32,049 nt of DNA, taken from contig JAKVAQ010000045.1 of assembly GCA_022447665.1 (NCBI GenBank), forward strand, positions 1-32,049. The letters run 5' to 3'. The position numbers and the translations under genes are program-made. Below the pieces are notes generated by a model. It was not told where the DNA came from. It saw nothing but the letters and a program-made list of their open reading frames with translations, and ran no database searches. Below are positions 1,455-18,921 of this stretch, in pieces. The stretch comes from Crocinitomicaceae bacterium. Lineage in GTDB: Bacteria > Bacteroidota > Bacteroidia > Flavobacteriales_D > Crocinitomicaceae. Position 1 is the first letter of the stretch, and the number at the start of each line of letters is the position of its first letter.

Positions 1455-2923
1455 ATGCAACTACTTACTAAATCTCTTAGGAGAGTACTGTTAATTTCCC
1501 TAAGCTTCTTTTTATTTACGTTATAGGCTTAGAGAGGGCCAGGCGGTGTTTCTTTGGAGATTGCTGGAGATAGTGATTGTAAAATGTGGTGCGGTGCAGG
1601 AGAGCTAATTCTAGGTGATGGGGACCCTGTAGCAGCTTGGCCAGACATCTCATAATCTGCTGATATCAATACACCTACATAAGCGGCAGTTGCAAGTCAA
1701 CCAACTTATAGATCAGCTGCAACTGAGAGTATAAATGGTAATCCGGTCCTTAGGTTTTTACCAGCACAGTTTCTACAATTACTTTCATCAGATGACATAA
1801 ACGACCATGGTCCTTACACGCAGAGAACAACTTTCTTAGCCTTTAGGATAGGTACAGATATTACGCCACGTCAGATGCTGTGGGAGCAAGGCGGTACAGT
1901 AAGAGGTTTGAATGTCTATATCTTTAATGGATATTTATATTTCGGAGGTTATGATGTAGCAGGGGGTGATCCAGATGGTACACCAGCTTGGCCCTATACT
2001 TTTACGAGAGTTCCAGTTGACCCAAGCACCCCTTACGTTGTGACACACGTCTTTGAAGGCTCTCTAGGTGCAACGACAGGTACTATTTCGGGGTTTCTTA
2101 ATGGGCATTCCAAGCACTGAACCCAGGTGTTGTTGAGGGAGATCCTGCAGGGAATGTAGAGTCATTATGGGCACACCCAAATCCTCCTAGATTAGGAGCG
2201 ATTAACGGTGACTTATATAATGAGTTAGGACCAATCGGTGGTGCTACAGGAAGTCAACCTTTCCTTGGAGATATGGCAGAGTTTATTGCGTATGCCGATC
2301 TACTAAACGATGCTGAAATAATTATTGTTGAGAACTATTTAGGAGCGAAATATTTTGCTGATCTAGTAGTAAATGACTTTTTCGATTGGCAGTTAATACA
2401 CGCTGACGAGGTTATTGGTATTGGCCGTTTTACTGGGGCAACAAATTTTCATAATGTAAGCCAAGGCCGAAATGTTTTTCAAATAGAAGGCCCAACCGCA
2501 GATTTTGCTGATGCAGACAACGAATTTTTCTTGGTGGGTCATAATGATGCTGATGTCACGAATTGGACTGTAACCGACGCACTTAACTTGGGTATTAATA
2601 CGCAACGAGTTGTCCGAGAGTGGAAAGTAGATCATACGGGAGAAGTTGGAGATGTTAAATTTACGGTGATTAATCAACTAAGTATAAACGAGAATGAACT
2701 TGAAAACCTATCAGTGTATCCAAATCCAGTTCAGAATTTTGCAGCAATTGACTACGCAGGATCTTATTCGTACAGCATTATCGATGCCACTGGTAAGGTT
2801 GTAATGAATGGTCAAGAAAATGGTAAAGCAGAAGTTTCAATGGAGGCGCTTGCACCATGAATGTATATTATTGAACTAGTTGATGGTGACAAGATTTCTA
2901 GGTTATCTCACATTAAGGAGTAA
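1455..2923 (+). pseudogene. LamG-like T9SS surface protein, copy 1, inactivated
   Basis: This is homologous end to end with the intact gene at 3168-4640. It starts at an equivalent ATG (MQLLTKSL) after an equivalent leader. Inactivating changes are in-frame TAG at 1524 and 1530 (signal peptide end), TAA at 1653 and 1680, a 4-base deletion near 2110 that shifts the frame, and TGA at 2858 inside the T9SS tail where copy 2 has GGA. The original stop is at 2921-2923. Most other differences are synonymous: in a 120-base sample from 1875 I count about 18 changes, one of them non-synonymous. The open fragments at 1875-2120 and 2273-2860 are pieces of this gene, not genes. From about 2640 on it is nearly identical to the tail of copy 2. 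Confidence 0.9.
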
Positions 2924-2943
2924 ACTTAAGTAATTATTATTTG

Positions 2944-2975
2944 AAGCGGCATCGTGAAAACGGTGCCGCTTTTTT
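2944..2975 (+). terminator. Intrinsic terminator after copy 1
   Basis: A stem at 2944-2955 pairs with 2960-2971, with one G.U pair and a GAAA loop, followed by a T-run. The sequence is the reverse complement of the hairpin at 1229-1258 except for one base. Confidence 0.88.
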
Positions 2976-3056
2976 GTTGCAAATTGCTTAAATATCAATG
3001 ATTCAATTTATTAGATCATTCTAGGTATAAAATATTAAACAATATAAGTCCCAGAT

Positions 3057-3136
3057 TCAGTTTTTTTTGATCTATGCTTAATCTTGTTTAGTCGAAAATA
3101 ATTTGGAGTTCATGCATACATCTTGTAAATTGAAGT
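3057..3136 (+). promoter_or_regulatory. Conserved leader block upstream of copy 2
   Basis: Same element as at 1345-1422; identical to the block at 4774-4853. It lies 30-110 bases before the start codon, where a promoter or 5'-UTR element would sit. Confidence 0.45.
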
Positions 3137-3167
3137 ACTTTTAGGTTATGTCCTCAAAACCCATAGC

Positions 3168-4640
3168 ATGTCACTACTTACTAAATCACTTAAGAGAGAA
3201 CTACTACTTTGCTTAAGCTTTTTATCATTTACATTGCTGGCCCAAAGAGGGCCGGGTGGTGTTTCTTTGGAAGTTGCTGGAGATAGTGACTGTAAAATGT
3301 GGTGCGACGCAGGGGAGCTTGTGCTTGGAGATGGAGATCCAGTTGCGGCTTGGCCAGATATTTCCTTGTCTGCAGATGTTAATACGCCAACGCAAACTGC
3401 GGTGGTCAGTCAACCAACGTATAGATCAGCTGCAGCGGAAAGTATTAATGGTAATCCTGTTCTTAGGTTTTTACCTGCGCAATTTCTTCAATTACTTTCT
3501 TCGGATGATATTAATGACCAAGGACCTTATACGCAAAGAACTACTTTCTTGGCTTTCAGAACGGGAACAGACATTACCACACGTCAAATGCTATGGGAAC
3601 AAGGTGGGACAGTAAGAGGATTGAATGTATATATCTTTGATGGCTATTTGTATTTTGGTGGTTATGATGTCGCTGGAGGTGATCCAGATGGCACTCCAGC
3701 ATGGCCGTTTACGTTTACAAGAGTTCCAGTTGACCCAAGTACACCTTATGTTGTGACCCATGTATTTGAAGGGCCTTTAGGTGCAACAACAGGTACCATC
3801 TCAGGTTTTCTAAATGGACAATCGTTTCAAGCTTTAAACCCTGGAGTAGGTGAGGGAGATCCTGCTGGTAATGTAGGGTCTTTATGGACGCATCCAAACC
3901 CTCCAGGATTGGGTGCGATTAATGGAGATTCGTACAATGAGTTAGGGCCAATAGGTGGTGGTACAGGAAGTCAACCTTTTCTCGGTGATATGGCTGAGTT
4001 CATTGCATATGATGAACTCCTCAACGATGCTGAAAGAATCATTGTAGAGAATTATTTAGGAGCGAAATATTTTGCTGACCTAGTAGTAAACGATTATTTC
4101 GATTGGCAGTTAACACATGGAGATGAAGTTATCGGTGTTGGACGTTTTTCTGGAGCCACAAATCTTCATAATGTAAGCCAGGGTCGTAATGTTTTTCAAA
4201 TAGAAGCACCTACAGCTGATTTTGCGGATGTAGATGATGATTTTTTTTTGGTGGGTCATAATGATGCAGACATTACAAGTTGGACAGTTACCGATGCACC
4301 AAATTTAGGAATCAATACGCAGCGTATTGCTAGAGAATGGAAAGTAGACCATACGGGAGATGTTGGAGATGTTACATTTACGGTGATTAATCAACTAAGT
4401 ATAAACGAGAATGAACTTGAAAACCTATCAGTGTATCCAAATCCAGTTCAGAATTTTGTAACAATTGACTACGCAGGATCTTATTCGTACAGCATTATCG
4501 ATGCCACTGGTAAGGTTGTAATGAATGGTCAAGAAAATGGTAAAGCAGAAGTTTCAATGGAGGCGCTTGCACCAGGAATGTACATTATTGAACTAGTTGA
4601 TGGTGACAAGATTTCTAAGTTATCTCTCATTAAGGAGTAA
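3168..4640 (+). CDS. Chimeric LamG-like surface protein with T9SS type A tail (copy 2)
   Basis: The product has 490 residues. It has a signal peptide (hydrophobic LLLCLSFLSFTLLAQ, cleavage near residue 26), then a concanavalin/LamG-like module at about 35-300 (KMWCDAGELV start, QMLWEQGG and VYIFDGYLYFGG strands, a FLGDMAEFIAYDELLNDAERIIVENYL region). A second conserved segment at about 310-400 (GDEVIGVGRF, FFLVGHNDAD, REWKVDHTGDVGD) is followed by a type A sorting domain (SVYPNP to LSLIKE). It should be a surface-anchored or secreted T9SS cargo, possibly glycan- or surface-binding; the ligand is unknown. Residues 1-350 match copy 3 almost exactly while the last 75 match the copy 1 tail, so this gene is a recombinant. 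It has its own leader and terminator. Confidence 0.88.
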   Translation: MSLLTKSLKRELLLCLSFLSFTLLAQRGPGGVSLEVAGDSDCKMWCDAGELVLGDGDPVAAWPDISLSADVNTPTQTAVVSQPTYRSAAAESINGNPVLRFLPAQFLQLLSSDDINDQGPYTQRTTFLAFRTGTDITTRQMLWEQGGTVRGLNVYIFDGYLYFGGYDVAGGDPDGTPAWPFTFTRVPVDPSTPYVVTHVFEGPLGATTGTISGFLNGQSFQALNPGVGEGDPAGNVGSLWTHPNPPGLGAINGDSYNELGPIGGGTGSQPFLGDMAEFIAYDELLNDAERIIVENYLGAKYFADLVVNDYFDWQLTHGDEVIGVGRFSGATNLHNVSQGRNVFQIEAPTADFADVDDDFFLVGHNDADITSWTVTDAPNLGINTQRIAREWKVDHTGDVGDVTFTVINQLSINENELENLSVYPNPVQNFVTIDYAGSYSYSIIDATGKVVMNGQENGKAEVSMEALAPGMYIIELVDGDKISKLSLIKE

Positions 4641-4660
4641 ACTTAAGTAATTATTATTTG

Positions 4661-4692
4661 AAGCGGCATCGTGAAAACGGTGCCGCTTTTTT
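4661..4692 (+). terminator. Intrinsic terminator after copy 2
   Basis: Same hairpin as at 2944-2971: stem 4661-4672 with 4677-4688, GAAA loop, then a T-run. Confidence 0.88.
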
Positions 4693-4773
4693 GCTGTAAA
4701 TTGCTTAAATATCAATGATTCAATTTATTAGATCATTCTAGGTATAAAATATTAAACAATATAAGTCCCAGAT

Positions 4774-4853
4774 TCAGTTTTTTTTGATCTATGCTTAATC
4801 TTGTTTAGTCGAAAATAATTTGGAGTTCATGCATACATCTTGTAAATTGAAGT
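4774..4853 (+). promoter_or_regulatory. Conserved leader block upstream of copy 3
   Basis: Identical to the block at 3057-3136 because it lies in the recent duplication. The independent evidence for conservation is the comparison with 1345-1422. Confidence 0.45.
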
Positions 4854-4884
4854 ACTTTTAGGTTATGTCCTCAAAACCCATAGC

Positions 4885-7800
4885 ATGTCACTACTTACTA
4901 AATCACTTAAGAGAGAACTACTACTTTGCTTAAGCTTTTTATCATTTACATTGCTGGCCCAAAGAGGGCCGGGTGGTGTTTCTTTGGAAGTTGCTGGAGA
5001 TAGTGACTGTAAAATGTGGTGCGACGCAGGGGAGCTTGTGCTTGGAGATGGAGATCCAGTTGCGGCTTGGCCAGATATTTCCTTGTCTGCAGATGTTAAT
5101 ACGCCAACGCAAACTGCGGTGGTCAGTCAACCAACGTATAGATCAGCTGCAGCGGAAAGTATTAATGGTAATCCTGTTCTTAGGTTTTTACCTGCGCAAT
5201 TTCTTCAATTACTTTCTTCGGATGATATTAATGACCAAGGACCTTATACGCAAAGAACTACTTTCTTGGCTTTCAGAACGGGAACAGACATTACCACACG
5301 TCAAATGCTATGGGAACAAGGTGGGACAGTAAGAGGATTGAATGTATATATCTTTGATGGCTATTTGTATTTTGGTGGTTATGATGTCGCTGGAGGTGAT
5401 CCAGATGGCACTCCAGCATGGCCGTTTACGTTTACAAGAGTTCCAGTTGACCCAAGTACACCTTATGTTGTGACCCATGTATTTGAAGGGCCTTTAGGTG
5501 CAACAACAGGTACCATCTCAGGTTTTCTAAATGGACAATCGTTTCAAGCTTTAAACCCTGGAGTAGGTGAGGGAGATCCTGCTGGTAATGTAGGGTCTTT
5601 ATGGACGCATCCAAACCCTCCAGGATTGGGTGCGATTAATGGAGATTCGTACAATGAGTTAGGGCCAATAGGTGGTGGTACAGGAAGTCAACCTTTTCTC
5701 GGTGATATGGCTGAGTTCATTGCATATGATGAACTCCTCAACGATGCTGAAAGAATCATTGTAGAGAATTATTTAGGAGCGAAATATTTTGCTGACCTAG
5801 TAGTAAACGATTATTTCGATTGGCAGTTAACACATGGAGATGAAGTTATCGGTGTTGGACGTTTTTCTGGAGCCACAAATCTTCATAATGTAAGCCAGGG
5901 TCGTAATGTTTTTCAAATAGAAGCAACTACAGCTGATTTTGCGGATGTAGATGATGAATTTTTCTTGGTGGGTCATAATGATGCAGACATTACCAGTTGG
6001 ACAGTTACCGATGCACCAAATTTAGGAATCAATACGCAGCGTATTGCTAGAGAATGGAAAGTAGACCATACTGGGGATGTGGGAGATATTCGATTTACAG
6101 TGGATGCCACTACCGAACTTCCGGCTTTTCCGGCAGGTTTTACGCGGCTATGTTTAGTCATGGATCTTAGTGGAGGGGCAATTTCAAATTTTAACTCAGG
6201 GAGTGTAGAGATTATTGAAATGATTGACCTTGGCGGAGGAATTTATGAAACAACGCAAACGGTACCTGATGGAACTTATATCACCTTCGCAGTAATTAAT
6301 CCAGCAGTACAATTTACTAATTCAAATGATTTTGGATTTGAATTAACCCCGGTTGGTGCAGATGCGCTTGGAACAGTGCAGGTGGAGTTGAATTATAGAC
6401 CTCTAACAGATATAACCGTTAACTATACATTTGCTGATGTTACTGCAGTATTTGGAGCTGGTCCACCTCCTGGAGTTGATTATAATAATGTGACACCAGG
6501 AACAGGAATCGTTACTATTCCTGCAGACAATTACTTTGGCAATATTAATTTCGATATTCTTGGAGATAGTGACCCTGAGAGTTCTGAAGACTTAAGGTTT
6601 AATTTGGTGTTAGGGGCAGGTACAACCGCTGATTTGGAATTAGGAGCTACCGATGAAAATACCTTTACCATATTTGATGACGATAATACCCCTGATGTAG
6701 GGTTTGCTGTAGTGGCTTCTTCTGAGCCAGAATCTGCTGGAACTGTTAACGTTCAAATCGTTAGATCTGGGAATATAGTACCACCCGTATCGGTTGAATA
6801 TAGGTTAAGAATTCCTGGTGGATCCGGTACAGCGACAGATGGTGTTGACTATACATATGTTTCCGGAATAGCCAATTTCGCTTCAGGTGTTACTACCTTT
6901 GATATGCCTGTTACAATTCTTGAAGACTTATTGGATGAGCCTGACGAAACAATAATTTTTGAGTTGTTCAATTCGGTGGATTGTGATATCATACCAGCGC
7001 AGAAAGAACATACCTTAACAATAGTCGATAATGATTCTCCGCCTGAGGTATGTTTCGCAATTACTACGTCACAAGGACCTGAATCATTCGGAACTCCGGT
7101 AATTGAAGTGATTTTATCGGCACCTTCTACATTGGTTTGTGAAATCGATTATCAAGATTTACTCACGGGTACGGCATTATTTCCAGGAGATTATACAATC
7201 GCAACAACAGGAACAATCACCTTCGCACCAGGCGATACGTTAGAGACGTTGCCATTATTTATTGTGAATGATGTTGCTCCAGAGCCGGACGAAACAATAA
7301 ACTTTGAATTACTACCAGGTACAGCTGTGAATTGTACCCCTGGGGCTTGTCTTACGCATACATATACAATAAAGGATTATACATCGTTCGAGTGGTTGGG
7401 AGTGGCTGGTATAGGTATGCCAGTGGATAATGTGTTCTGGTTTAATGCAGATGCTTTGCCTGATGCAGATGGCGCCAATGTTACTGACTTTCTTGATCAA
7501 TCTCCGAACGGGCAAGTTGCCACTCAAGGTACTGGAGCTAATCGTCCGAATATGAATTTTGCGGGACCAAACGGTAAAAAAGAACTTGATTTTAATGGTA
7601 CTACAGATTTCTTTGATTTGGATGACGACCCATTGATCAATACATCAGCATTTTATACTAGAAAATATGTTACAGTTGTATTCACTACTACAGCTGATGT
7701 AGGCACAAGACAATTAATATATGAACAAGGAGGGGGTACTCGTGGAATCTCAATTTATATAGATGGCGGAGACCTATATTTCCATGTTTGGAGTAATAAT

Positions 7801-9237
7801 GACGATAATGGCACCGACTCAAGGTGGGGTGTTGGTTCTCCAACAGGAGCCTTCTTTGTTAATGGTACAGTGGACCCAAGTGCTACATCGGTTGCAACAT
7901 TAGTTTATGAAACTGATGGGGGTACAGGAGGTACTTTAGAAGGATTTATTAATGGGGCAAGTGTTGGAACAGTGGCCTTGAGCACAGTTGCAGGTACACA
8001 AGAACCACGTCTATATTCGCATGGCGATAATGGAGGTATTGGTGATGTTGTAGGTACTACACGTTACCATGACAATGCATCGGGCAGCAATCCATTTGGC
8101 GGGTCGATTCAAGAATTGGTTCATTATAGTGATGCTCCTTTTAATACTACAAGAAGAATCATCTTGGAAAACCATATGTCCGTTAAGTATGATGTAGCCT
8201 TAGCCGCAGGTGCTCAAAAGTACGCCATAAGTTATGCGTCTTCGCATGAAAATGAAATTGCCGGAATTGGTCAGTTTGGTGCTAGTGATAACCATTCTGA
8301 TTCTCAGGGAACGGGTATGGTAAGAATTAACACACCAAGTGATTTAGATGTAGGGGATTTCCTTATGTGGGGACATGATGGCGCATCACTAACAGTTGGA
8401 CTTTTCCCGTACGTTGAATACATTCCTGGAATATCCAATAGACTGCATAGGGTTTGGAAAGCAAGTGAACTTGCAGGTGACGTCGGGACTGTAACCCTGG
8501 CATGGGATTTATCTGTTATTGCTGGTTTTGCCTCAATGGTAGAAACAGATCTGGTCTTGTTAATCGATTCTGATGATGGAAATTTTTCTAATGCACTCCA
8601 AATAGAAGCGGGACGTTCTTATGTTCCAACAACCGGAACTTTAACTTTTACAGGAGTGAACTTAAACAATGATGTTTGGTTTACAATCGGTACTAAAACA
8701 TCTGCAACCCCTCTACCAATTGAGTTGTTAGAGTTTACAGCAACTCCAGTTGAAAATGATGTTCGCCTAAATTGGACAACACTTTCAGAAACAGAAAACG
8801 ACTTTTTTACCATCGAAAGATCTCGTGATGGTATTGCGTTCACAGAATTAATGAAGGTGCCTGGAGCAGGTAATTCGAGTATAGAGCTTAATTATGAGGA
8901 ATGGGACAATAATCCACTTCCAGGAATTTCTTATTACCGTTTAAAACAAACAGACTTCAATGGAACAACTTCGTATTCTGATATTGTGAGTGTTGAGTTC
9001 GATGGGCCAAAATTGAGTATCTATCCAAATCCTGCTGCTGACTTAATTAACGTACAAACTAATCTTGATGATTCTTATGCCGTTTATGTCTTTGATATCC
9101 AAGGAAAACTAATTCGTACTTGGGAAGAAGGTGATCAGGCCTTTAAAATGGATGTGTCAACTTTAGAATCTGGCATCTATTACATGAATATAATCTCTGA
9201 AAATGAGAGCGTTACAAAGCAGTTTGTCGTAAATTAA
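4885..9237 (+). CDS. Large T9SS surface protein: two LamG-like modules flanking Calx-beta repeats (copy 3)
   Basis: The product has 1450 residues with the same signal peptide and first module as copy 2 (to about residue 405). Three Calx-beta-like domains follow at roughly 489-595, 600-715 and 718-830, each ending in a DDD/DND-type turn such as FTIFDDD and LTIVDND, a Ca-binding fold common in adhesins. A second copy of the LamG-like module spans about 840-1245 (VFWFNADAL, QLIYEQGGGTRGISIYI, IILENHMSVKYDVAL, EIAGIGQFG, HRVWKASELAGDVG), diverged from the first. An FN3-like segment (PIELLEFTA... YYRLKQTDFNG) lies at about 1276-1370, and a type A sorting domain (LSIYPNP...) from about 1376. It is a likely cell-surface adhesin or matrix protein. 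It is probably the parental head for copy 2. No terminator is evident after the stop. Confidence 0.9.
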   Translation: MSLLTKSLKRELLLCLSFLSFTLLAQRGPGGVSLEVAGDSDCKMWCDAGELVLGDGDPVAAWPDISLSADVNTPTQTAVVSQPTYRSAAAESINGNPVLRFLPAQFLQLLSSDDINDQGPYTQRTTFLAFRTGTDITTRQMLWEQGGTVRGLNVYIFDGYLYFGGYDVAGGDPDGTPAWPFTFTRVPVDPSTPYVVTHVFEGPLGATTGTISGFLNGQSFQALNPGVGEGDPAGNVGSLWTHPNPPGLGAINGDSYNELGPIGGGTGSQPFLGDMAEFIAYDELLNDAERIIVENYLGAKYFADLVVNDYFDWQLTHGDEVIGVGRFSGATNLHNVSQGRNVFQIEATTADFADVDDEFFLVGHNDADITSWTVTDAPNLGINTQRIAREWKVDHTGDVGDIRFTVDATTELPAFPAGFTRLCLVMDLSGGAISNFNSGSVEIIEMIDLGGGIYETTQTVPDGTYITFAVINPAVQFTNSNDFGFELTPVGADALGTVQVELNYRPLTDITVNYTFADVTAVFGAGPPPGVDYNNVTPGTGIVTIPADNYFGNINFDILGDSDPESSEDLRFNLVLGAGTTADLELGATDENTFTIFDDDNTPDVGFAVVASSEPESAGTVNVQIVRSGNIVPPVSVEYRLRIPGGSGTATDGVDYTYVSGIANFASGVTTFDMPVTILEDLLDEPDETIIFELFNSVDCDIIPAQKEHTLTIVDNDSPPEVCFAITTSQGPESFGTPVIEVILSAPSTLVCEIDYQDLLTGTALFPGDYTIATTGTITFAPGDTLETLPLFIVNDVAPEPDETINFELLPGTAVNCTPGACLTHTYTIKDYTSFEWLGVAGIGMPVDNVFWFNADALPDADGANVTDFLDQSPNGQVATQGTGANRPNMNFAGPNGKKELDFNGTTDFFDLDDDPLINTSAFYTRKYVTVVFTTTADVGTRQLIYEQGGGTRGISIYIDGGDLYFHVWSNNDDNGTDSRWGVGSPTGAFFVNGTVDPSATSVATLVYETDGGTGGTLEGFINGASVGTVALSTVAGTQEPRLYSHGDNGGIGDVVGTTRYHDNASGSNPFGGSIQELVHYSDAPFNTTRRIILENHMSVKYDVALAAGAQKYAISYASSHENEIAGIGQFGASDNHSDSQGTGMVRINTPSDLDVGDFLMWGHDGASLTVGLFPYVEYIPGISNRLHRVWKASELAGDVGTVTLAWDLSVIAGFASMVETDLVLLIDSDDGNFSNALQIEAGRSYVPTTGTLTFTGVNLNNDVWFTIGTKTSATPLPIELLEFTATPVENDVRLNWTTLSETENDFFTIERSRDGIAFTELMKVPGAGNSSIELNYEEWDNNPLPGISYYRLKQTDFNGTTSYSDIVSVEFDGPKLSIYPNPAADLINVQTNLDDSYAVYVFDIQGKLIRTWEEGDQAFKMDVSTLESGIYYMNIISENESVTKQFVVN

Positions 9238-9355: not shown

Positions 9356-9378
9356 CTTTGAATTTTAACGTCTTAGCG

Positions 9379-12339
9379 ATGAAAAAAACGGTTTTATTCT
9401 TAATTGGTTTTGTAAGTGCTCTAACTTACGCACAAAACGGAACTGTAGCAGGAGTGGTTAATGCGAGCGAAAATGGTGAGCTTAATCCGATTCCAATGGT
9501 TAAAATTATTGATGTTGACCAAGGCAAGCCAATTGGTGTTACCAGATATGACGGAACATACAGTGTTTCTCTTTCAGAAGGTGAACATCGTTTATTATTT
9601 AGCTATATCTCAAAAAGAAAAGACACCGTTACAGTTAATGTTGTTGCTGGTGAAACTACACTTAAAGATATCGAGCTTTATTCTGATACAGAATTAGAAG
9701 TTGTTGAAATATTTGGTGGTGTTATCACAGGTGGTGGATCTGAAATTAAATCAACAAAAGACACTAAAGAGGACGAAAAAGTAGTAGCTATCATTACGGA
9801 TCAACAAATGGGTGAGAAGGGTGTAGGAAACGCTGCAGAAGCAACTAAAAAGATTACTGGACTATCAACTGTTGGTAGCTCTTTATACGTTCGTGGTTTA
9901 GGTGATCGATACAATGTTGTTTATATGAATGGTTTACCATTGCCTTCACCAGATCCTGATTTTAGAGTTGTTCCTCTAGATTTATTTCCAACTGATGTTA
10001 TTAGTTCAGTACAAGTTTCAAAAGTGATGTCTTCGGAGTTTTACGGAGATTATGCTGGTGGAGCTTTCAACATGACAACAAAAAGCTTTTACGATAAACC
10101 AACATTTAAGATGTCTGTTGGTGGAGGTGGAAATACTCAAACTACCTTCCAGGATTTCAAAACCTACCAAGGCGGTAAATTTGATGTGTTTGGTTTTGAT
10201 GATGGAACGAGATCTGTACCTTCATCGGTTTACGCTAACTCTAAAGACTTAAATGCTTACCCAGGTGTAAATAACTTATTTCCAAATGTGCTTTACACAA
10301 CAAACCCTGATATTGGATCTGATTTCCAAAACAATTTTGGTGTTCAAAATGTAATGGCACGTCCAGGATTCAACTTCTCACTTTCTGGCGGAGGATTCAA
10401 ACCATTCACGAAATCAGACAATTCAAAATCTAGTGGGATGGGATTCTTAGCGTTGGTTAAGAATGATAATAGTTTACACTACCAAGAAGGTGTTGTGAAA
10501 ATCATTAACGCCCAAAGCGAAGAAAGATTAAACTACGATGTTTACCAATACAATTACGAAACATCTACAACAGCTTTATTAAACTTTTACGTGCGATTTA
10601 ACCCTAACCACAACATTAGTGTTAACTCATTATTCGTAAATCAATCTAATGATGAAGCTCGTGAAACTTGGGGTTACCATTTTGATTACGATCCGTTCAA
10701 CGTTTATTCAAGACGTTATACCTATAGACAAAACTTCTTAAATGTTAACCAAGTAATTGGTACGCATAAATTTGGAGTTGATGAAGAGGATCCGACTTTC
10801 TCGAAACTAATTTTAGACTGGAGAGCGTCTTATAGTATGACTGGAAGCAAAGAGCCAGACAGAAGACAGTTAGTTGCCTTGTACAATAAGGATACAGATC
10901 CAAGATCAACAGGTCAATACGACATGTGGAATGCACTTGACTTAAACGAAAACCACAGATTCTTCTCAATGTTAAGAGAAACTGAAATCGCTGCAAAAGT
11001 GAATACGAAATATGTGCTTAAATCTGAAAAGAATAAAACAGAAAGAGGTAAAGTTGAAGTAGTTGATTTAATTACACTTCGTGGTGGAGTTGATTTCAGA
11101 CAAAAAACTAGAGTATTTGATTACAAACAATATAATTACAACATTAAGTCTTTAGCTGATAGCATTGGTGTTGTGGATGTATACGCTACTGATGACTATT
11201 TCACAAATGAGAATCACCAAGCAGGATTGTTCTTTATTGATGAATTGGCCAACTTCGGATCTTCTTATTTAGCAGAGTTAAGCGTATTAGGATTTTACGG
11301 AGATGCAAAATTCAGATTAAATAGATTAGAAGTTATTCCTGGCATTCGTTACGAGAACTCTTTCCAAAGAGTATTCAATAGAGATCAAACATCTCCAGTG
11401 AACTTTAACAACACTATTGTTCCTACTTCTCCATTACAAGGTCTTTTACCAAGCTTAATCTTAAAGTATTCAAAAGACGAAAGAAATGTATTCAGATTTG
11501 TTGCAAGTAAAACCTTAACTAGACCTAAGTTTAATGAGGTAGCACCTTTCCAATACATTCAGTTCTTTGCTGGTGTTAAAGCTGAAGGAAATGACACGTT
11601 GAAAAACGGAGTTAATTATAACGCAGATTTCAGATATGAATTCTATCCTACACCAGGAGAAATGATTACTGTTGGTGCTTTCTACAAGTATCTTCAAAAT
11701 CCAATTGAGCAAACTATGCGTGGAACAGCTTCAGGGCAATTAATTTCTTTCTCAAATGCTAAGTCAGGTCAAGTTGCTGGATTGGAAGTTGAATACATGA
11801 AGAACTTAGGTTTCTTAGCTGACTCAAGCAAAAGAAAAGATTCTTTCTGGAGCAATCTTTCATTAGGTTTCAATGCATCTTACATGTATACGCAGGTATT
11901 GATTGATACCTTAGACCCAGGGAATATTAGTACAAACTATAGACGTCCACTAGAAGGTGCCTCACCTTTCCTTTTAAACCTTGATTTACGTTACAAGAAA
12001 ACGTTTAAGGCGGATAAAGAAACTGGTAAGGCTAAAAAAGATGTTTTATTCGGATTAGCATACAATGTATTCGGACAAAGATTAGTTTCAGTAGGGGGGC
12101 AAGGTATTGGTGATCAATATGCTCTTCCTGTAAACACATTAAACTTTGTATCGAAGTTGACATTCGATGATAGATTCTCTGTTGGATTTAAAGCAAGAAA
12201 CCTATTCAATCCTTACATCAGAATTTACCAGCAAGATATGGTAAACAAAGGTGAAAGATTAGAAGTTTCTAGCTTCAGAAGAGGTATTGACTTTAGTTTC
12301 TCTGTATCATATACTTTTACTGGGAAAGACAAGAAATAA
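9379..12339 (+). CDS. TonB-dependent outer-membrane receptor
   Basis: The product has 986 residues from the ATG at 9379 (MKKTVLFLIGFVSALTYAQ signal peptide; a TTG at 9358 would add seven residues before it). Domains are a carboxypeptidase-regulatory-like beta sandwich at about 20-110 (NGTVAGVVNASENGE...), a short linker, a plug at about 130-235 (EATKKITGLSTVGSSLYVRG, GLGDRYNVVYMNGLPLPSPD, FYGDYAGGAFNMTTKSF), and a 22-strand-type barrel to the C-terminus. It transports a ligand across the outer membrane using TonB-ExbBD energy. It is not SusC-like in context: no SusD gene follows, but two beta-helix lipoproteins do. Substrate is unknown. Strong codon bias suggests high expression. Confidence 0.92.
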   Translation: MKKTVLFLIGFVSALTYAQNGTVAGVVNASENGELNPIPMVKIIDVDQGKPIGVTRYDGTYSVSLSEGEHRLLFSYISKRKDTVTVNVVAGETTLKDIELYSDTELEVVEIFGGVITGGGSEIKSTKDTKEDEKVVAIITDQQMGEKGVGNAAEATKKITGLSTVGSSLYVRGLGDRYNVVYMNGLPLPSPDPDFRVVPLDLFPTDVISSVQVSKVMSSEFYGDYAGGAFNMTTKSFYDKPTFKMSVGGGGNTQTTFQDFKTYQGGKFDVFGFDDGTRSVPSSVYANSKDLNAYPGVNNLFPNVLYTTNPDIGSDFQNNFGVQNVMARPGFNFSLSGGGFKPFTKSDNSKSSGMGFLALVKNDNSLHYQEGVVKIINAQSEERLNYDVYQYNYETSTTALLNFYVRFNPNHNISVNSLFVNQSNDEARETWGYHFDYDPFNVYSRRYTYRQNFLNVNQVIGTHKFGVDEEDPTFSKLILDWRASYSMTGSKEPDRRQLVALYNKDTDPRSTGQYDMWNALDLNENHRFFSMLRETEIAAKVNTKYVLKSEKNKTERGKVEVVDLITLRGGVDFRQKTRVFDYKQYNYNIKSLADSIGVVDVYATDDYFTNENHQAGLFFIDELANFGSSYLAELSVLGFYGDAKFRLNRLEVIPGIRYENSFQRVFNRDQTSPVNFNNTIVPTSPLQGLLPSLILKYSKDERNVFRFVASKTLTRPKFNEVAPFQYIQFFAGVKAEGNDTLKNGVNYNADFRYEFYPTPGEMITVGAFYKYLQNPIEQTMRGTASGQLISFSNAKSGQVAGLEVEYMKNLGFLADSSKRKDSFWSNLSLGFNASYMYTQVLIDTLDPGNISTNYRRPLEGASPFLLNLDLRYKKTFKADKETGKAKKDVLFGLAYNVFGQRLVSVGGQGIGDQYALPVNTLNFVSKLTFDDRFSVGFKARNLFNPYIRIYQQDMVNKGERLEVSSFRRGIDFSFSVSYTFTGKDKK

Positions 12340-12359
12340 GGTTAAATAATTTATAAAGG

Positions 12360-12385
12360 TCCCGCTCTCGAGCGGGATTTTTTTT
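12360..12385 (+). terminator. Intrinsic terminator after the TonB receptor
   Basis: TCCCGCT/AGCGGGA stem with a CTCG loop, followed by eight T. Confidence 0.9.
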
Positions 12386-12515
12386 AACAATGATAAGATT
12401 AAGTCAACGTTAAGAATGATAAAGACACATTTAACCAATCATTAAAATTGAATTAAATAAATCACGGAATTCGCTTCCGATATTTGCACAAACAAAAACG
12501 AATAATACTATTAAA

Positions 12516-13751
12516 ATGAAATTAAAAAACTCTCTTATCGCCGCTTTACTAGTTGGAGGAGTTATGGTTGTAGCTCCATCTTGTAACAGAAAAGGATGTA
12601 CTGATCCAACTGCTAATAACTACGATGAAAAAGCAAAAAAGGAGGATCCAGATGAGCCTTGTACTTATGACCTTCCTACTGGCTATACAGTAGTTACTAT
12701 TGGAGGTGTAAGCTACAATCAATTAGACGCTAACCTTACACAAGATATGACTTTAGACGCTGCGTCTAACTGGTTATTATCTGGAGGAACTTTTGTAAAT
12801 GATGGTGTTACCTTAACTATCGAAGCAGGTACTACAGTTTATACAGCTGATGATGGAACGGTTCCATTCTTATCTGTTTCACAAGGAGGTAAATTAATGG
12901 CCGTAGGTACAGCTTCTTCTCCAATTGTTTTTACTCCAATTTCTGCAACTCCTGCTCCAGGTGACTGGGGAGGAATCATCCTAAACGGATATGCTCCAAT
13001 CAACACTGGTGCTACTGCTGAAGGTGAAGGAGGAACTGGTACTTATGGAGGTGCTATTGCTGATGATAATTCAGGAACATTACAATATGTTAGGGTTGAG
13101 TATGCAGGAAAATTACTTTCTACAGATAATGAGTTGAACGGATTCTCATTCAATGGAGTTGGTTCAGGAACTTCTTTAAGCTATTTACAAGCGTATAGAG
13201 GAAATGACGATGGATTCGAGTTCTTTGGAGGAACTGTTTCTTTGTCAAACGCTGTATCTTCTGGTAACGGAGATGATTCATTTGACTGGACTCACGGATG
13301 GGTTGGTACTGGTACTAACTGGATCGTTGAGCAAGACGCAACTTTAGGTGATAGAGGAATTGAGGCTGACAACAATGGTGATAACAACGATGCTATGCCA
13401 ATGTCTGCTCCTTCAATCTCTAAATTAACAATCACTGGTCGTGGATCTTCTGCTGAGAAAGATGCTATCAAATTAAGAGAAGGAACTTCTGCAACAATTG
13501 ATAACGTATTAATCACTGGTGCTAAAGACGGTATTGATATCCAACATGATGTAACTGCTGCAAACGTAACTGCTGGTACATTAACTATCACTAACGTTAC
13601 TGCTTCATCTGACGTAACTAACCCTTACGCTGTAAATGTTGCTGCAGGAACAGATTCAACTAACACTGCTAACATGCTTAATACGGCTGTTAATGGTGCT
13701 GGAACTGGAGCTGACACTGGTTGGACTTCAGGATGGACTAAAGCACTATAA
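12516..13751 (+). CDS. Surface-type lipoprotein with right-handed beta-helix
   Basis: The product has 411 residues. A lipoprotein signal ends in VVAPSC with the acylated Cys at 23. Next comes a Cys-containing motif NRKGCTDPTANNYDEKA...EPC (residues 24-50) of the 'GCTDPxAxNY' type common in exported Bacteroidota proteins. The rest is repetitive, Thr/Gly/Asn-rich beta-strand sequence with regular short rungs (LTIEAGT, APGDWGGIILNG, LQYVRVEYAGK, LSYLQAYRGNDDGFEFFGG), typical of a parallel beta-helix. There is no T9SS tail, so it is expected to be lipid-anchored in the outer membrane. It sits 177 bases after the TonB receptor with a terminator between, and has a paralogue immediately downstream. 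Very biased codon use (GCT, ACT, AAC, GTA) suggests abundant expression. It could be a substrate-capture partner of the receptor (inference). Confidence 0.8.
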   Translation: MKLKNSLIAALLVGGVMVVAPSCNRKGCTDPTANNYDEKAKKEDPDEPCTYDLPTGYTVVTIGGVSYNQLDANLTQDMTLDAASNWLLSGGTFVNDGVTLTIEAGTTVYTADDGTVPFLSVSQGGKLMAVGTASSPIVFTPISATPAPGDWGGIILNGYAPINTGATAEGEGGTGTYGGAIADDNSGTLQYVRVEYAGKLLSTDNELNGFSFNGVGSGTSLSYLQAYRGNDDGFEFFGGTVSLSNAVSSGNGDDSFDWTHGWVGTGTNWIVEQDATLGDRGIEADNNGDNNDAMPMSAPSISKLTITGRGSSAEKDAIKLREGTSATIDNVLITGAKDGIDIQHDVTAANVTAGTLTITNVTASSDVTNPYAVNVAAGTDSTNTANMLNTAVNGAGTGADTGWTSGWTKAL

Positions 13752-13782
13752 GAAACTTCTTATAACACGTTTTAATAAAGCT

Positions 13783-13816
13783 AAAAGGCCTTGCCCGTAT
13801 GGGTGAGGCTTTTTTC
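13783..13816 (+). terminator. Intrinsic terminator after the first beta-helix lipoprotein
   Basis: AAAAGGCCTTGCCC pairs with GGGTGAGGCTTTT (several G.U pairs) around a GTAT loop, followed by a T-run. Confidence 0.8.
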
Positions 13817-13880
13817 GTTTTATAACTTAACCGTAATTATAGCTTAACAGAGTGCGTACTTGAATACTCTATCTTTCATT

Positions 13881-15107
13881 ATGAATCGAATTAAGAAGAA
13901 ACAATCAATTAACCTCTTTACCATTCTTATCGGGATTGGATTATTTTTCCCGGCTTGTAATAAAAGAGGTTGTACAGATCCAGCAGCTGAAAATTATAAT
14001 CTGGATGCAAAAATTGATGATGGATCATGCCTTATAGAAAATCCAGGAAATCCTTGCCATTACACAATTAATGGTGTTTGCTATAAAGGACTTCATTCTA
14101 ATATTACAGAAGATACCTATTTAGACGCAGAAACAAATTGGTTATTATCGGGTGGGACATTCGTTGATCCTGGGGTGACTTTAACGATAGAAGCAGGAAC
14201 AATTATTCATGCCGCTGATGATGGCACTGTTCCATTTTTGAGTATTTCAAGAGGGGCAAAAATTGTTGCTGATGGAACAGCTGAAAATCCAATCGTATTT
14301 ACCCCTATATCGTCAAGCCCAGAACCCGGTGATTGGGGTGGTATAATTATAAATGGTTCGGCAAATGTGAATATGGAATCCTGCGTAGGAGAAGGGGGTA
14401 CGGGTCCATTTGGTGGAAATGATGACGATGATAATTCAGGAATCTTAAAATATGTTAGAGTAGAGTACGGAGGAAAGTTAATATCCACAGATAATCAATT
14501 GAATGGCTTCTCCTTCAACGCTGTGGGCAGTGGTACTACTCTAGAGTATTTACAAGCGTATAAATGTGCTAACGATGGATTCAATATTTTAGGTGGTAGA
14601 GCAGCGGTGAATTTTGCCTTATCCACAGGAAATAGGGGAGATGGTTTTGATATAAATTTGGGTTGGATAGCTAATGGTAAAGAATGGATTGTTGAGCAAG
14701 AAGCAGGGTTCGGAAGCACAGGAGTAGAGATTGAAAATGATCCCGTATATCCTCAATGGACAAAGGCAGATTTGACCAACATAACGATTATTGGATCTGG
14801 CAGTTCGCAAGGACAAGATGGATTAAAGTTTAGAGAAGGATCTCAGGGAACCATATCGAATATTTATATCGTTGGATTTAAGGATGGAATAGACCTCAAA
14901 AACGATGAAACTGGAGAGAGTGTTTCGTCAGGTGATCTAATTATTTCTAATGCAACTATTGGGATGGACGTACTTAACGCATATCAAGTATCTATAGATT
15001 CTAGTATTGATTCAACGAATGCGGTTAATATGCTAGAAAATGCAATTGACAGTTCAGGTGTTGGAGCCGCCAGCTATTGGACCCTTGGTTGGACTAAAGG
15101 GATATAA
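13881..15107 (+). CDS. Second beta-helix lipoprotein, paralogue of the preceding gene
   Basis: The product has 408 residues from the ATG at 13881; a TTG at 13860 would only lengthen the signal. The signal ends in GLFFPAC with Cys26 acylated. A KRGCTDPAAENYNLDAKIDD motif and a beta-helix follow, colinear with the 12516-13751 product (NWLLSGGTFV, GVTLTIEAGT, GDWGGIIINGSA, VRVEYGGKLISTDNQLNGFSFN, TLGWTKGI end). Unlike its neighbour, it uses many rare-type codons (ATA, AGA, GGG), consistent with lower expression or an older, less constrained copy. It is probably an outer-membrane lipoprotein acting with or varying the partner of the TonB receptor upstream. This is inference from position only. 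Confidence 0.8.
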   Translation: MNRIKKKQSINLFTILIGIGLFFPACNKRGCTDPAAENYNLDAKIDDGSCLIENPGNPCHYTINGVCYKGLHSNITEDTYLDAETNWLLSGGTFVDPGVTLTIEAGTIIHAADDGTVPFLSISRGAKIVADGTAENPIVFTPISSSPEPGDWGGIIINGSANVNMESCVGEGGTGPFGGNDDDDNSGILKYVRVEYGGKLISTDNQLNGFSFNAVGSGTTLEYLQAYKCANDGFNILGGRAAVNFALSTGNRGDGFDINLGWIANGKEWIVEQEAGFGSTGVEIENDPVYPQWTKADLTNITIIGSGSSQGQDGLKFREGSQGTISNIYIVGFKDGIDLKNDETGESVSSGDLIISNATIGMDVLNAYQVSIDSSIDSTNAVNMLENAIDSSGVGAASYWTLGWTKGI

Positions 15108-15109
15108 AT

Positions 15110-15138
15110 AAAGGCCTAGATTAAATCTAGACCCTTTT
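15110..15138. terminator. Weak bidirectional hairpin between convergent genes
   Basis: CTAGAT-TAA-ATCTAG with an interrupted GG/CC extension, preceded by AAA and followed by CCTTTT. It lies in the 54-base gap between the second lipoprotein and the response regulator. Confidence 0.45.
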
Positions 15139-15161
15139 AATGAACCAAATAATGATTTTAA

Positions 15162-15842
15162 TTATTGTTGAAATTTATAACCGACACCTTTTATGGTAAC
15201 AATATACTCGTCTCCCAGTTTCTCTCTTAATTTTCTAATATGAACATCAATTGTTCTATCACCAACAATCACATCTCCACCCCAAACGGTATTCATGATC
15301 TCCTGACGCTCAAAAACAACGCCTGGCTTTGACATTAATAGCGATAATAATTCAAACTCTTTTCTTGGAAGATTGATCTTTTCATCCTCTTTCATTACTC
15401 TGTAACGCTCGCGATTAAGAACGATTTTTGGATTTAAAGTTTCTTCAAAATCAATATCAGCTCTTGATGACTTTCTTCTTCTTAGCATTGAAGAGATTTG
15501 ACTCACCAATACTTTCGGCTTAATGGGCTTCGTTAAGTAATAATCGGCACCTGCATCTAAACCTGCAATTTGAGAATAATCTTCTCCTCTAGCGGTAAGG
15601 AAACAAATCATAGTGTCATTTAAATTTGAATCCTGACGTAATTGCTCACATGTTTCAATACCGTCCATCTCAGGCATCATAACATCTAAAAGTATAACCG
15701 CTGGATGAACTTCTTTAGCCGTTTGAATACCTTCCAAACCATTAGGAGCTTCGTATACAGTAAACCCTTCTTTCTCAAGGTTGTACTTTAATAAAAAGCG
15801 AATATCGCTTTCATCGTCTATGACTAATATTTTTTCACTCAT
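15162..15842 (-). CDS. OmpR/PhoB-family response regulator
   Basis: The product has 226 residues. The receiver domain spans 1-120, with acidic pocket D9/D10, phosphoacceptor D53 (LLDVMMPEMDG), T83 and a KP pair near 106-107. A linker and a winged-helix DNA-binding domain follow at about 135-226 (LPRKEFELLSLLMSKPGVVF, VGDRTIDVHIRKLREKLGDEYIVTIKGVGYKF). It binds DNA and is controlled by phosphorylation from a histidine kinase that is not encoded beside it. Its ATG overlaps the TGA of the aquaglyceroporin gene (ATGA, 4 bases), so the two are translationally coupled. The family includes PhoB, which fits the Na/Pi transporter nearby, but the sequence alone does not prove a phosphate role. Confidence 0.92.
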   Translation of the reverse strand: MSEKILVIDDESDIRFLLKYNLEKEGFTVYEAPNGLEGIQTAKEVHPAVILLDVMMPEMDGIETCEQLRQDSNLNDTMICFLTARGEDYSQIAGLDAGADYYLTKPIKPKVLVSQISSMLRRRKSSRADIDFEETLNPKIVLNRERYRVMKEDEKINLPRKEFELLSLLMSKPGVVFERQEIMNTVWGGDVIVGDRTIDVHIRKLREKLGDEYIVTIKGVGYKFQQ

Positions 15843-16624
15843 TTAGTTGAATTTCTAAAAGATAATTTTTCCTTAGAACGTCTATTGTCTAAAGATAATT
15901 TAAATAATAATGTTGCGCTACTTGCACCTACAATTGGTCCCAAAATATATACTGTAATAAATCCTAGGCTAGGACCTGAGAATGCAATGTTTTCGTACCC
16001 ATTAAAATAACTAAAAAGTCGTGGGGCAAAATCTCTTGCTGGATTAAACCCTGCTTGGGTATAAGGTGCAATAACATAAATTAAAATGCTGAGTGTTATC
16101 CCAATCGCTGCGGCTTTAATTAAATAATGAAGTCTTTCATTATGATTAATAACTAAAATAGCGAACATCAATAAAAAGGTTCCGCCAAATTCAAATAAAA
16201 AAGCTGTACTGGTTCTAAGTTCGTTTAAAGATGCGTTTTCAGGGTTTGGATAATATTCACCAAAAATCATAGCTGTATTGATACTAAAATTTCCGCCTTC
16301 TGCTAGCAAAATTTGATTTTCGAAGATCATAAAAACTGCAAAAGCGGCTATGAAAGCACCCAACAATTGCCCTACCAAATATATTCCGAAGGTCTTTAAA
16401 CCGATGTTCTTATTGAAATAAAAACCTAAACTAACCGCCGGGTTTAAATGGGCGTTAGAAAAATTTCTTGATACTAAAATGGCGATAAAAACTGCGATTC
16501 CCCATACTCCAGCAATTTGAATAAGCGAAAGTTGGTTTATTAATACAGTGTAGCCAACAACACCACAGCCGAGAAAAACCAAAATAAAGGTTCCTAATAA
16601 TTCGCCAACAAAGTGTTTTAGCAT
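15839..16624 (-). CDS. MIP-family channel, aquaglyceroporin-like
   Basis: The product has 261 residues with six hydrophobic helices and the two half-helix signatures of the family: NPA at 61-63 (SNAHLNPAVSLGF) and NPA at 194-196, continued as NPARD (AGFNPARDFAPRLF). The Asp after NPAR is typical of glycerol-facilitator-type channels rather than strict water channels. It allows passive passage of small neutral solutes (water, glycerol, possibly arsenite) through the inner membrane. It is the first gene of a coupled pair with the response regulator and is divergent from the Na/Pi transporter. Related channels occur in arsenic-resistance operons; with ArsM 2.4 kb away, arsenite permeation is a reasonable hypothesis but unproven. 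Confidence 0.88.
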   Translation of the reverse strand: MLKHFVGELLGTFILVFLGCGVVGYTVLINQLSLIQIAGVWGIAVFIAILVSRNFSNAHLNPAVSLGFYFNKNIGLKTFGIYLVGQLLGAFIAAFAVFMIFENQILLAEGGNFSINTAMIFGEYYPNPENASLNELRTSTAFLFEFGGTFLLMFAILVINHNERLHYLIKAAAIGITLSILIYVIAPYTQAGFNPARDFAPRLFSYFNGYENIAFSGPSLGFITVYILGPIVGASSATLLFKLSLDNRRSKEKLSFRNSTK

Positions 16625-16711
16625 AGTCGCAAAATTATCAAGGATGTATTCCAGCTGTGTTAAGCCAATATGAAGAAAACCTTAACTTTATAACTGTAAC
16701 GCTTTAAAATC

Positions 16712-16724
16712 GGTGATTTTCACC
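16712..16724. promoter_or_regulatory. Short inverted repeat in the divergent control region
   Basis: GGTGA-TTT-TCACC lies midway between the aquaglyceroporin and Na/Pi transporter starts. Three TAAC words at 16683, 16691 and 16697 lie beside it. Either could be an operator; this is suggestive only. Confidence 0.25.
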
Positions 16725-16785
16725 ACGATACTATTTAGTGGAACCTTATTCCTCAGTACCTCGTATTAACTATACTTATTTTAGC

Positions 16786-16793
16786 TAATTTTG
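16786..16793 (+). promoter_or_regulatory. -7 box for the Na/Pi transporter
   Basis: TAATTTTG is a perfect TAnnTTTG element 16 bases before the ATG at 16810. No clear -33 TTG is present, so activation by a regulator is possible. Confidence 0.45.
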
Positions 16794-16809
16794 ACGCACA
16801 TTTGAAAAA

Positions 16810-18921
16810 ATGAGGAAACTCTTATTAATTCTATCATTATTCCTTTGTTTTTTTGGGAACTCCCAAGAATTTCTTCTCACAAACGAAGGCGATACAATCG
16901 ACGACAAGTCTATATTGCTAACCAAAGCTAAAGCAAAGGTTGATGAAGTTAAGATTCAATGGGCAATAGATCCAATTGATTACAATTCAATAAAAAATGA
17001 TGCTGGAAAGAATTATTCCTTTTCTATACGCTATGCTACCAAAAATGAATTAAAAAGTATTGAACTTCAGATTGAAGGAGCAGAATGGCATACCGTTCAA
17101 GATATTCCGATCTCTGAAAGTGACTATAAAATTGAAGAGTTATCTGAAAATGACAGTTATGTTTTTCAATTAGGACTTTCCAATGGAACCGAAACTGTTT
17201 GGGCGAAGAAGGATAAGTTTTCTACTGATCGAGGATGGGGTGTAATTAAGGTATTGATTTTAATTGGAGCATTGGCCTTCTTTATTTATGGTATGAAAAT
17301 CATGAGTGAAGGAATTCAAAAAGCTGCTGGTCAGAAAATGCGTAACATTTTAAGCGCAATGACTTCCAACAGGCTGAAGGGGATATTCACAGGTTTTCTT
17401 ACGACTACACTTATTCAATCTTCCTCGGCGACTACCGTAATGGTAGTAAGTTTTGTGAACGCTGGGCTACTTACTTTACGCCAATCTATTGGGGTTATAA
17501 TGGGAGCTAATATCGGAACAACAGTAACCAGCTGGTTAATTGTATTATTCGGATTCGGAAGCTTCAAAGTATCGGCGTTTTCATTACCAATCATCGCTGT
17601 TGCTATCCCATTATTATTCTCATCGAAAAGTAAAAATAAATCTTGGGGTGAGGTATTAATTGGATTTGCGATCTTATTCATGGGCTTACAGTTCTTGAAA
17701 GAAAGTGTTCCAGATCTTAAGTCTAATCCAGAAGCATTACAGTTCATTAACGATATTGCTGGAACTGGTATCCACCATATTTTATTAGCAGTACTTATAG
17801 GAACAATAATTACTGTAATTGTTCAATCATCAAGCGCGGCTATGGCCATAACATTAATCCTTTGTAATGAGGGGTATATTCCATTTGAAATGGCTGCTGG
17901 AATGGTGTTAGGTGAAAATATTGGTACAACTATCACCGCGAATCTTGCCGCAATTATTGGAAATACAGCTGCCAAGCGAGCCGCTCGAGCACACTTCATT
18001 TTTAATGTGTTTGGAGTGGTGTGGATGGTCCTTGTTTTTGCTTGGTTTATTCAAGGAATAGATTACTTCATGATCAATTACACGCATTGGTCAAGTCCTT
18101 TTACCGAAGCAAGCTCAAGGCCAGTGGGATTGAGCATTTTCCATACAGCGTTTAACTTATTAAACGTACTTATTATGGTTTGGATGGTACCTATTATCGC
18201 GCGAATAGTGGAGCGCATGGTTCCGTCTAAGGCTGGTGATGATGAGTTTCATCTGGAATACATTCGTGGTGGAGTTTTGGCAACGCCTGAATTGTCAATT
18301 TTAGAAGCGCGAAAAGAAGTACACAAGTTCTCTGGAATTGCAAGTAGAATGTCTGAATTCTTTAAGTCTCTTCTTACTGAAACCAACAAGAAGAAAATTA
18401 AAAAGCTTGTTGAAAGAATAGAGAAATACGAGGAGATTACAGATAGAGTAGAAGAAGAAATTGCGGATTATTTATCGAAAGTCGCGGAGGGAGACCTTTC
18501 TGATGTTACCTCAAAAAGAGTCCGTGCCATGTTGAGTATTACGAATGACCTTGAAAGCATAGGTGATATATATTATCAGCTTTCTAAAACCATGGAGCGA
18601 AAAGATGCTGAGAAAATTTGGTTTACTCCAGAACAAAGAAATCGTGTGCTTGAAATGGTAGATTTAGTGGATCAAGCTTTCGATTTGATGAATAATGAAT
18701 TGGATCAAGAGTATGACAAAATCGAGCTTGACGCGGCCATTGAAATGGAAAATCGTATCAATCTCAAGCGCGATGAACTTAGATCTCAACATCTAGCAAA
18801 CGTCGAAAAGAAAGAGTATAACGTTAAATCCGGTATGATTTATAATGATATCTTCAATTCACTTGAACGTGTTGGTGATCATATTCATAACGTCATCGCT
18901 GCTGCTAGCGGTAAGGTATAA
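16810..18921 (+). CDS. Na/Pi cotransporter (NptA/YjbB type) with N-terminal periplasmic domain and PhoU-like tail
   Basis: The product has 703 residues: a signal peptide (1-18), then an unusual exported region of about 120 residues resembling a fibronectin/FN3-like sandwich (YSFSIRYATKNELKSIELQIEG...). From about 145 the membrane domain carries two inverted QSSSA repeats (Q203-A207 TLIQSSSATTVMVVS; Q339-A343 VQSSSAAMAITL) that bind Na and phosphate, and GANIGTT/GENIGTT signatures. From about 500 there is a PhoU-like coiled helical domain (EEITDRVEEEIADYL, ITNDLESIGDIYYQLSKTM). It imports (or exports) inorganic phosphate driven by sodium, and may also carry arsenate. Most relatives lack the N-terminal beta domain. 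It is divergent from the aquaglyceroporin/regulator pair and followed by arsM. Confidence 0.9.
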   Translation: MRKLLLILSLFLCFFGNSQEFLLTNEGDTIDDKSILLTKAKAKVDEVKIQWAIDPIDYNSIKNDAGKNYSFSIRYATKNELKSIELQIEGAEWHTVQDIPISESDYKIEELSENDSYVFQLGLSNGTETVWAKKDKFSTDRGWGVIKVLILIGALAFFIYGMKIMSEGIQKAAGQKMRNILSAMTSNRLKGIFTGFLTTTLIQSSSATTVMVVSFVNAGLLTLRQSIGVIMGANIGTTVTSWLIVLFGFGSFKVSAFSLPIIAVAIPLLFSSKSKNKSWGEVLIGFAILFMGLQFLKESVPDLKSNPEALQFINDIAGTGIHHILLAVLIGTIITVIVQSSSAAMAITLILCNEGYIPFEMAAGMVLGENIGTTITANLAAIIGNTAAKRAARAHFIFNVFGVVWMVLVFAWFIQGIDYFMINYTHWSSPFTEASSRPVGLSIFHTAFNLLNVLIMVWMVPIIARIVERMVPSKAGDDEFHLEYIRGGVLATPELSILEARKEVHKFSGIASRMSEFFKSLLTETNKKKIKKLVERIEKYEEITDRVEEEIADYLSKVAEGDLSDVTSKRVRAMLSITNDLESIGDIYYQLSKTMERKDAEKIWFTPEQRNRVLEMVDLVDQAFDLMNNELDQEYDKIELDAAIEMENRINLKRDELRSQHLANVEKKEYNVKSGMIYNDIFNSLERVGDHIHNVIAAASGKV

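Follow-up and report, generated by a model that had tools for sequence, protein, structure and literature searches.

A tandem repeat and a mosaic gene among type IX secretion cargo paralogues of a Crocinitomicaceae bacterium, consistent with unequal exchange between neighbouring copies

Exchange between neighbouring gene copies is already a well-known process in bacteria. In the tandem immunity-gene arrays esaG and tipC of Firmicutes, mosaic genes as well as the gain and loss of members have been reported (PMC9484751), the csa1 tandem lipoprotein genes of Staphylococcus aureus have been described as a "gene accordion" (PMC7360770), and the concerted evolution of prokaryotic paralogues has been treated as a subject of its own (PMC6053082). 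Here we describe a clean new example: a cluster of three tandem paralogues, named copies 1, 2 and 3, of a family of cargo genes of the type IX secretion system (T9SS) in a Crocinitomicaceae bacterium (assembly GCA_022447665.1), in which a direct repeat of 1717 bp goes together with a mosaic gene. The stretch analysed, hereafter the window, is one whole contig (JAKVAQ010000045.1) of 32049 bases, belonging to an 84-contig, 4.06-Mb draft genome.

The likeness to the esaG and tipC arrays, as far as these are set out in the account cited, concerns both the mosaics and the presence of a pseudogene: tandem paralogues recombine in shared blocks, which yields genes with parts of different neighbours, and the array contains a gene annotated as a pseudogene (PMC9484751). 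Unlike those arrays, which were followed in several strains and in which the events described are mostly deletions, the present case concerns one genome, a family of T9SS cargo genes and a duplication. The csa1 genes, in turn, resemble the present case as surface-protein paralogues, 61-80% identical, that expand and contract by recombination; changes in their copy number are reported to have been followed both in culture and in mice, with long reads as confirmation, whereas ours is inferred from one draft (PMC7360770). As in the cases presented under concerted evolution, copies within one genome are here more alike than their age predicts, namely in the identical centre of the repeat, although that study deals with long-lasting cases in many species and ours is one recent stretch (PMC6053082). 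In the open-access literature, queried only by pairing T9SS with the terms in question, nothing was found on the tandem duplication or recombination of T9SS cargo genes. What the locus may offer is a series of steps in one place and in genes of this kind: old paralogues, exchange, decay of one parent and re-homogenisation.

The three copies lie side by side on the + strand. Copy 1 (1455-2923) is a pseudogene of a short form, in which a head is followed by a short T9SS tail; copy 2 (3168-4640) is an open short form of 490 amino acids that joins the head of copy 3 to the tail of copy 1; and copy 3 (4885-9237) is an open long form of 1450 amino acids, in which the head is followed by a Calx-beta domain, a second head-like domain and a T9SS tail. 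A direct repeat spans position 2633 to about 6071. Its first unit (2633-4349, + strand) holds the tail of copy 1, the intergenic region and the head of copy 2, and its second unit (4350-6066, + strand) the tail of copy 2, the intergenic region and the head of copy 3. At an offset of 1717 the two units show 14 mismatches in 1717 bases, which bears out the repeat noted in the original prediction from about 2640 to 6069. Left of 2633 the identity drops to that of old paralogues (81.1% of 1178 aligned bases between the heads of copies 1 and 3), and right of about 6071 it drops to chance level.

The mosaic nature of copy 2 was followed in the ungapped columns of a three-way alignment over copy 2 positions 2913-4649. 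Copy 2 agrees with copy 3 alone at 290 sites, the final two being 4349 and 4361, and with copy 1 alone at 16 sites, 13 of which start from 4355 and continue rightward, the other three being found further left (2977, 2980 and 4209); at 4361 copy 1 is the odd one out with respect to copies 2 and 3. Copy 2 resembles copy 3 through 4349 and copy 1 from 4355 onward, and the switch falls in the five bases between them that are common to all three copies (4350-4354, + strand). The head of copy 3 and the tail of copy 1 had thus been correctly recognised in copy 2, and the switch, first placed at about 4340-4365, is narrowed to this short interval.

Adjacent direct paralogues were found here that include a mosaic member matching different neighbours in its different parts, with a junction in the homologous register of both parents. 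Indeed, the parental breakpoints occupy one shared alignment column and are in frame, in parents that are only 81% identical over the head, which is the mark of homologous exchange and not of chance joining. The starting state would have been a pair of old tandem paralogues, a short gene A (head and short T9SS tail) beside a long gene B, composed of the same head, Calx-beta, a second head-like domain and a T9SS tail of its own. Sister chromosomes would then have undergone an unequal homologous exchange just before the end of the head common to A and B, which would have duplicated the 1717 bp between the exchange points and given the order A, a recombinant with the head of B and the tail of A, and B. 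Later on, A (copy 1) would have decayed to a pseudogene while the recombinant copy 2 remained open, and a conversion-type event would have made the centres of both units identical again. With moderate confidence, we consider this succession of exchange, decay of copy 1 and conversion of the centre to be the best explanation of what the sequence of the locus presents.

The last of these steps is suggested by the distribution of the 14 mismatches. Ten of them fall in the 348 bases of the left end (2.87%), none in the 1228 bases of the centre (2981-4208, + strand, identical to 4698-5925) and four in the 141 bases of the right end (2.84%), both end rates being somewhat too high because the inner borders of the ends are the innermost mismatches, chosen post hoc. 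With mismatches placed uniformly, an inner gap of 1229 was obtained in 0 of 1,000,000 trials. Both unit ends are similarly diverged (10/348 against 4/141, Fisher p = 1.0), and a centre as old as the ends (2.86%) would be expected to hold 35 differences. A conservative expectation, restricted to silent and intergenic sites at the silent rate of the tail (1 in 62.5), is 6.9 differences, with a probability of finding none of 0.001; it is 0.016 when the uncertainty of a silent rate based on one change is allowed for, and 0.001 when the silent changes of the right end are added. The identical centre would go back to later homogenisation by conversion or to an effect of the assembly, and similar ends together with an identical centre are consistent with a single exchange and a subsequent conversion of the centre. 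The unequal homologous exchange between copies 1 and 3, originally proposed as the source of copy 2, is thus upheld by the homologous register, the reading frame and the similar divergence of the ends, but it does not suffice as a single event, since with 1228 identical bases between diverged ends one crossover cannot account for everything.

Several points weigh against this explanation. A second event has to be added for the identical centre. No more than a few tens of bases separate the exchange from the point where A and B cease to be alike; a random crossover would seldom fall there, and a conversion tract would find its natural stop. No donor of the short tail is visible in the genome, in which the other tails among 37 matches reach at most 41% identity. 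Moreover, the copy number and the mosaic state are read from one genome of the species, the genus search having matched this genome only.

That the switch sits just where the shared head ends is accounted for by a two-step origin, in which A was duplicated whole (A1 and A2) and the head of A2 was later overwritten by that of B through gene conversion ending with the A/B similarity. Such an origin would also explain why a divergence of about 2.9% separates the tails of copies 1 and 2 and yet the heads of copies 2 and 3 are nearly identical. Nevertheless, the four head differences, which it would let fall anywhere across 1369 bases (2981-4349), are all found in the last 141, for which the probability is 1.1e-4 (the true one is larger, the stretch having been picked after seeing the data), and the similar rates at both unit ends become a coincidence. 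We regard the two-step origin as possible, if on the whole unlikely. The cluster could, with a low probability, also be seen as the result of a recombinational rescue: with the short form failing or near failing, an open short gene would have been rebuilt from the old tail and the head of the neighbour; continued conversion would preserve the DNA identity of both open heads, and the old copy would be left to decay.

It is improbable that the assembler, working from short reads, produced either the number of tandem copies or the identical centre. The draft, in its 84 contigs, was probably built from short reads, with its repeats collapsed, and its three 16S matches stand together on one 3945-base contig, as would be the case in such drafts; a run of 1228 identical bases is, furthermore, longer than usual short-read pairs, which counts in favour of an assembly effect. 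Against it, neighbouring differences at the unit ends are 2-114 bases apart, that is, inside single reads, and the chimeric junction is bracketed by differences between copies 2 and 3 at 4277 and 4355, only 78 bases apart, so that single reads should show it. By reasoning rather than by inspection of the reads, an assembly graph with both unit ends and the tail of copy 2 has one linear path, and, had the centre diverged by 2.86%, it ought to have been resolved in the same way as the ends. An illegitimate tandem duplication through microhomology is very improbable indeed: the certain overlap at the junction amounts to only 5 bases (4350-4354), as such joining would have it, but both breakpoints occupy one alignment column of two paralogous genes that are some 80% alike across 1.4 kb, a register that such joining does not require.

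If the unequal exchange between A and B is retained, the state of copy 1 determines how its product should be understood. Copy 1 is a pseudogene, with in-frame stops at 1524, 1530, 1653 and 1680 in the head and at 2858 in the tail, as well as a 4-base deletion near 2107 in the head. Its architecture is that of copy 2, the same head and the same short T9SS tail, and therefore the exchange created no new domain combination; the initial idea that the event itself had fused the head to a short T9SS tail is not supported. The same applies to the proposal of an expanding secreted repertoire, as just two of the copies are now open, a short one and a long one. By descent, though not by design, copy 2 is a chimera, in which the short form was re-made with the head of the long gene. 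The locus shows an ordinary exchange between neighbouring copies and not the emergence of a novel type of protein, and it invites caution: where a parent survives as a pseudogene, a "chimeric gene" need not stand for a new architecture.

Regarding the ages of the copies, the heads of copies 1 and 3 show a synonymous divergence (Ks) of 1.30 and a non-synonymous divergence (Ka) of 0.054 over 386 codons, with four stop codons set aside; on these rates they are old paralogues, both long kept under strong constraint. In a tree of 18 rows the three copies group in one clade (100/100) to the exclusion of the sampled relatives; the row of locus L056 is shifted by five residues, the locus beginning at contig base 16. 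L056 and L025, which are on contigs of equal length (3813 bases) and at zero distance in a tree, are counted as one, and L025 is absent from the 18 rows; L062 (contig edge), L010, L014, L026, L030, L031 and L033 also stand outside the tree.

The tails of copies 1 and 2 are separated by 6 non-synonymous changes and 1 synonymous change, plus a stop, in 95 codons. When both outgroups had to agree, 12 head changes were assigned to copy 1 and 2 to copy 3 (p = 0.006); when one outgroup sufficed, the counts were 21 and 5, and 16 of 42 changes were not placeable. The five stops, the deletion and the changes in the tail show that the evolution of copy 1 has been relaxed. The non-synonymous rate of the heads of copies 1 and 3 (50/~894 sites, a figure that includes stops and older divergence) is not significantly different from that of the tails of copies 1 and 2 (7/~225; p = 0.17), the site counts being rounded. 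A decay of copy 1 from about the time of the exchange is allowed by these data, but it may have begun earlier.

As for the encoded proteins, copies 2 and 3 carry a type A T9SS sorting domain above the curated cut-off of 23 (44.2 and 52.9 bits, respectively), and the piece of copy 1 up to the stop in its tail scores 24.1 for the sorting domain, compared with the 27 of Pfam. The N-terminus is hydrophobic, as judged by eye, and the protein is probably exported by the T9SS, either to stay attached to the cell surface or to be set free from it. As proteins, the tails of the upstream gene (209-1210, + strand; TIGR04183, 50.6 bits, cut-off 23), of copy 3 and of copy 2 are, by their residues, T9SS homologues. 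Two of these were tried as donors of the short tail and rejected: that of the upstream gene is identical to the copy 2 tail at 25/74 residues (z 14.1), with DNA near shuffles (z 1.6), and that of copy 3 at 17/65 residues (z 10.7), with DNA near shuffles as well (z 0.25).

The second head-like domain that accompanies Calx-beta in copy 3 is 32% identical, and no Pfam family was found for the head. The term "LamG-like" first applied to it stays weak: no Pfam LamG match was obtained with the proteins of the window, Laminin G (PF13385) being absent from the matches of copies 2 and 3 at E values up to 5 (HMMER filters drop most weak matches). Of five remote relatives, two show a sub-threshold Laminin_G_3 match (21.2 and 20.5 bits, the cut-off being 27.6). 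A structure model of the head built from a four-sequence alignment reached a mean pLDDT of 32.2, and no fold search was based on it. A sequence search of solved structures gave five chains at E values up to 1, and only 7pzj lies below 0.001 (E 3.9e-4), with a match that covers residues 418-482, i.e., the sorting tail. A carbohydrate- or protein-binding role at the surface is a guess.

Relatives of the head are sparsely distributed. Matches were found in 5 of 100 genomes of the family (E 1e-20), in 2 of 240 (1e-60) and in 13 of 399 genomes of the order (1e-40), each count including the own genome and the three genome sets overlapping; in the search of 399 genomes at most four candidates were scored per genome, and weaker paralogues may be missed. 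The order-level search gave 15 matches outside the own genome: 9 belong to open frames of 1269-1572 amino acids, three abut contig ends (776, 1045 and 425 amino acids) and three belong to frames of 626-635 amino acids, and none of the uncut ones is a short form of 490 amino acids. The long gene of G003 (L036) lies between uvrC-like and amidohydrolase-like genes, named by eye, and has no short paralogue beside it; that of L025 is cut by the contig end, and its 1.5 kb of upstream sequence contain none either. In G253 (L069, C15:33000-51500), from another family of the order, three long paralogues of copy 3 stand in tandem, with open frames of 1477-1566 amino acids and 36-41% identity; tandem arrays thus occur elsewhere among the relatives of copy 3.

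A similar intergenic stretch, starting with a terminator-like hairpin, precedes every copy. The hairpins are found, on the + strand, at the head of the first gene unit (1229-1258, loop TTTC), after copy 1 (2943-2972, loop GAAA) and after copy 2 (4660-4689, loop GAAA). Allowing up to two mismatches, the pattern has three sites genome-wide, one upstream of each copy and nowhere else. The loop GAAA of the second and third units is the reverse complement of the TTTC of the first, as if flipped between the arms. Over its full length the intergenic region shows 74% identity between copies 1 and 3, and 26 bases are identical across the three copies (1378-1403, 3091-3116 and 4808-4833), possibly a promoter or a site for a regulator.

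From left to right, the genes are arranged as the T9SS-tail gene upstream, copies 1, 2 and 3, a TonB-dependent receptor (9358-12339) and, after it, a pair of genes related to each other. The receptor was matched in 14 of 100 genomes at 1e-150, the own genome included. In 12-14.5 kb of surroundings in six relatives (of 13 other genomes), no head match lies near the receptor in any of the six, and in all of them a response-regulator-like gene, named by eye, adjoins the receptor where the window has the cluster of copies 1-3. The two genes downstream of the receptor are a second tandem pair of paralogues (12516-13751 and 13860-15107, 49.6% amino acid identity), and a match to this pair adjoins the receptor in the nine receptor loci compared. 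The region 9358-18921 groups the receptor with a response-regulator-like gene (15162-15842) and a Na/phosphate-symporter-like gene (16810), these two named by eye, and may be a phosphate-linked locus. As regards the transposon ends said in the original prediction to be lacking, inspection of the open reading frames by eye revealed neither a transposase nor an integrase, profiles having been run only on six proteins or pieces from the left part, and no tRNA was found in the window. Near the end of the contig, 29257-32013 encodes a repetitive protein of 918 amino acids with an SprB-like look, as judged by eye.

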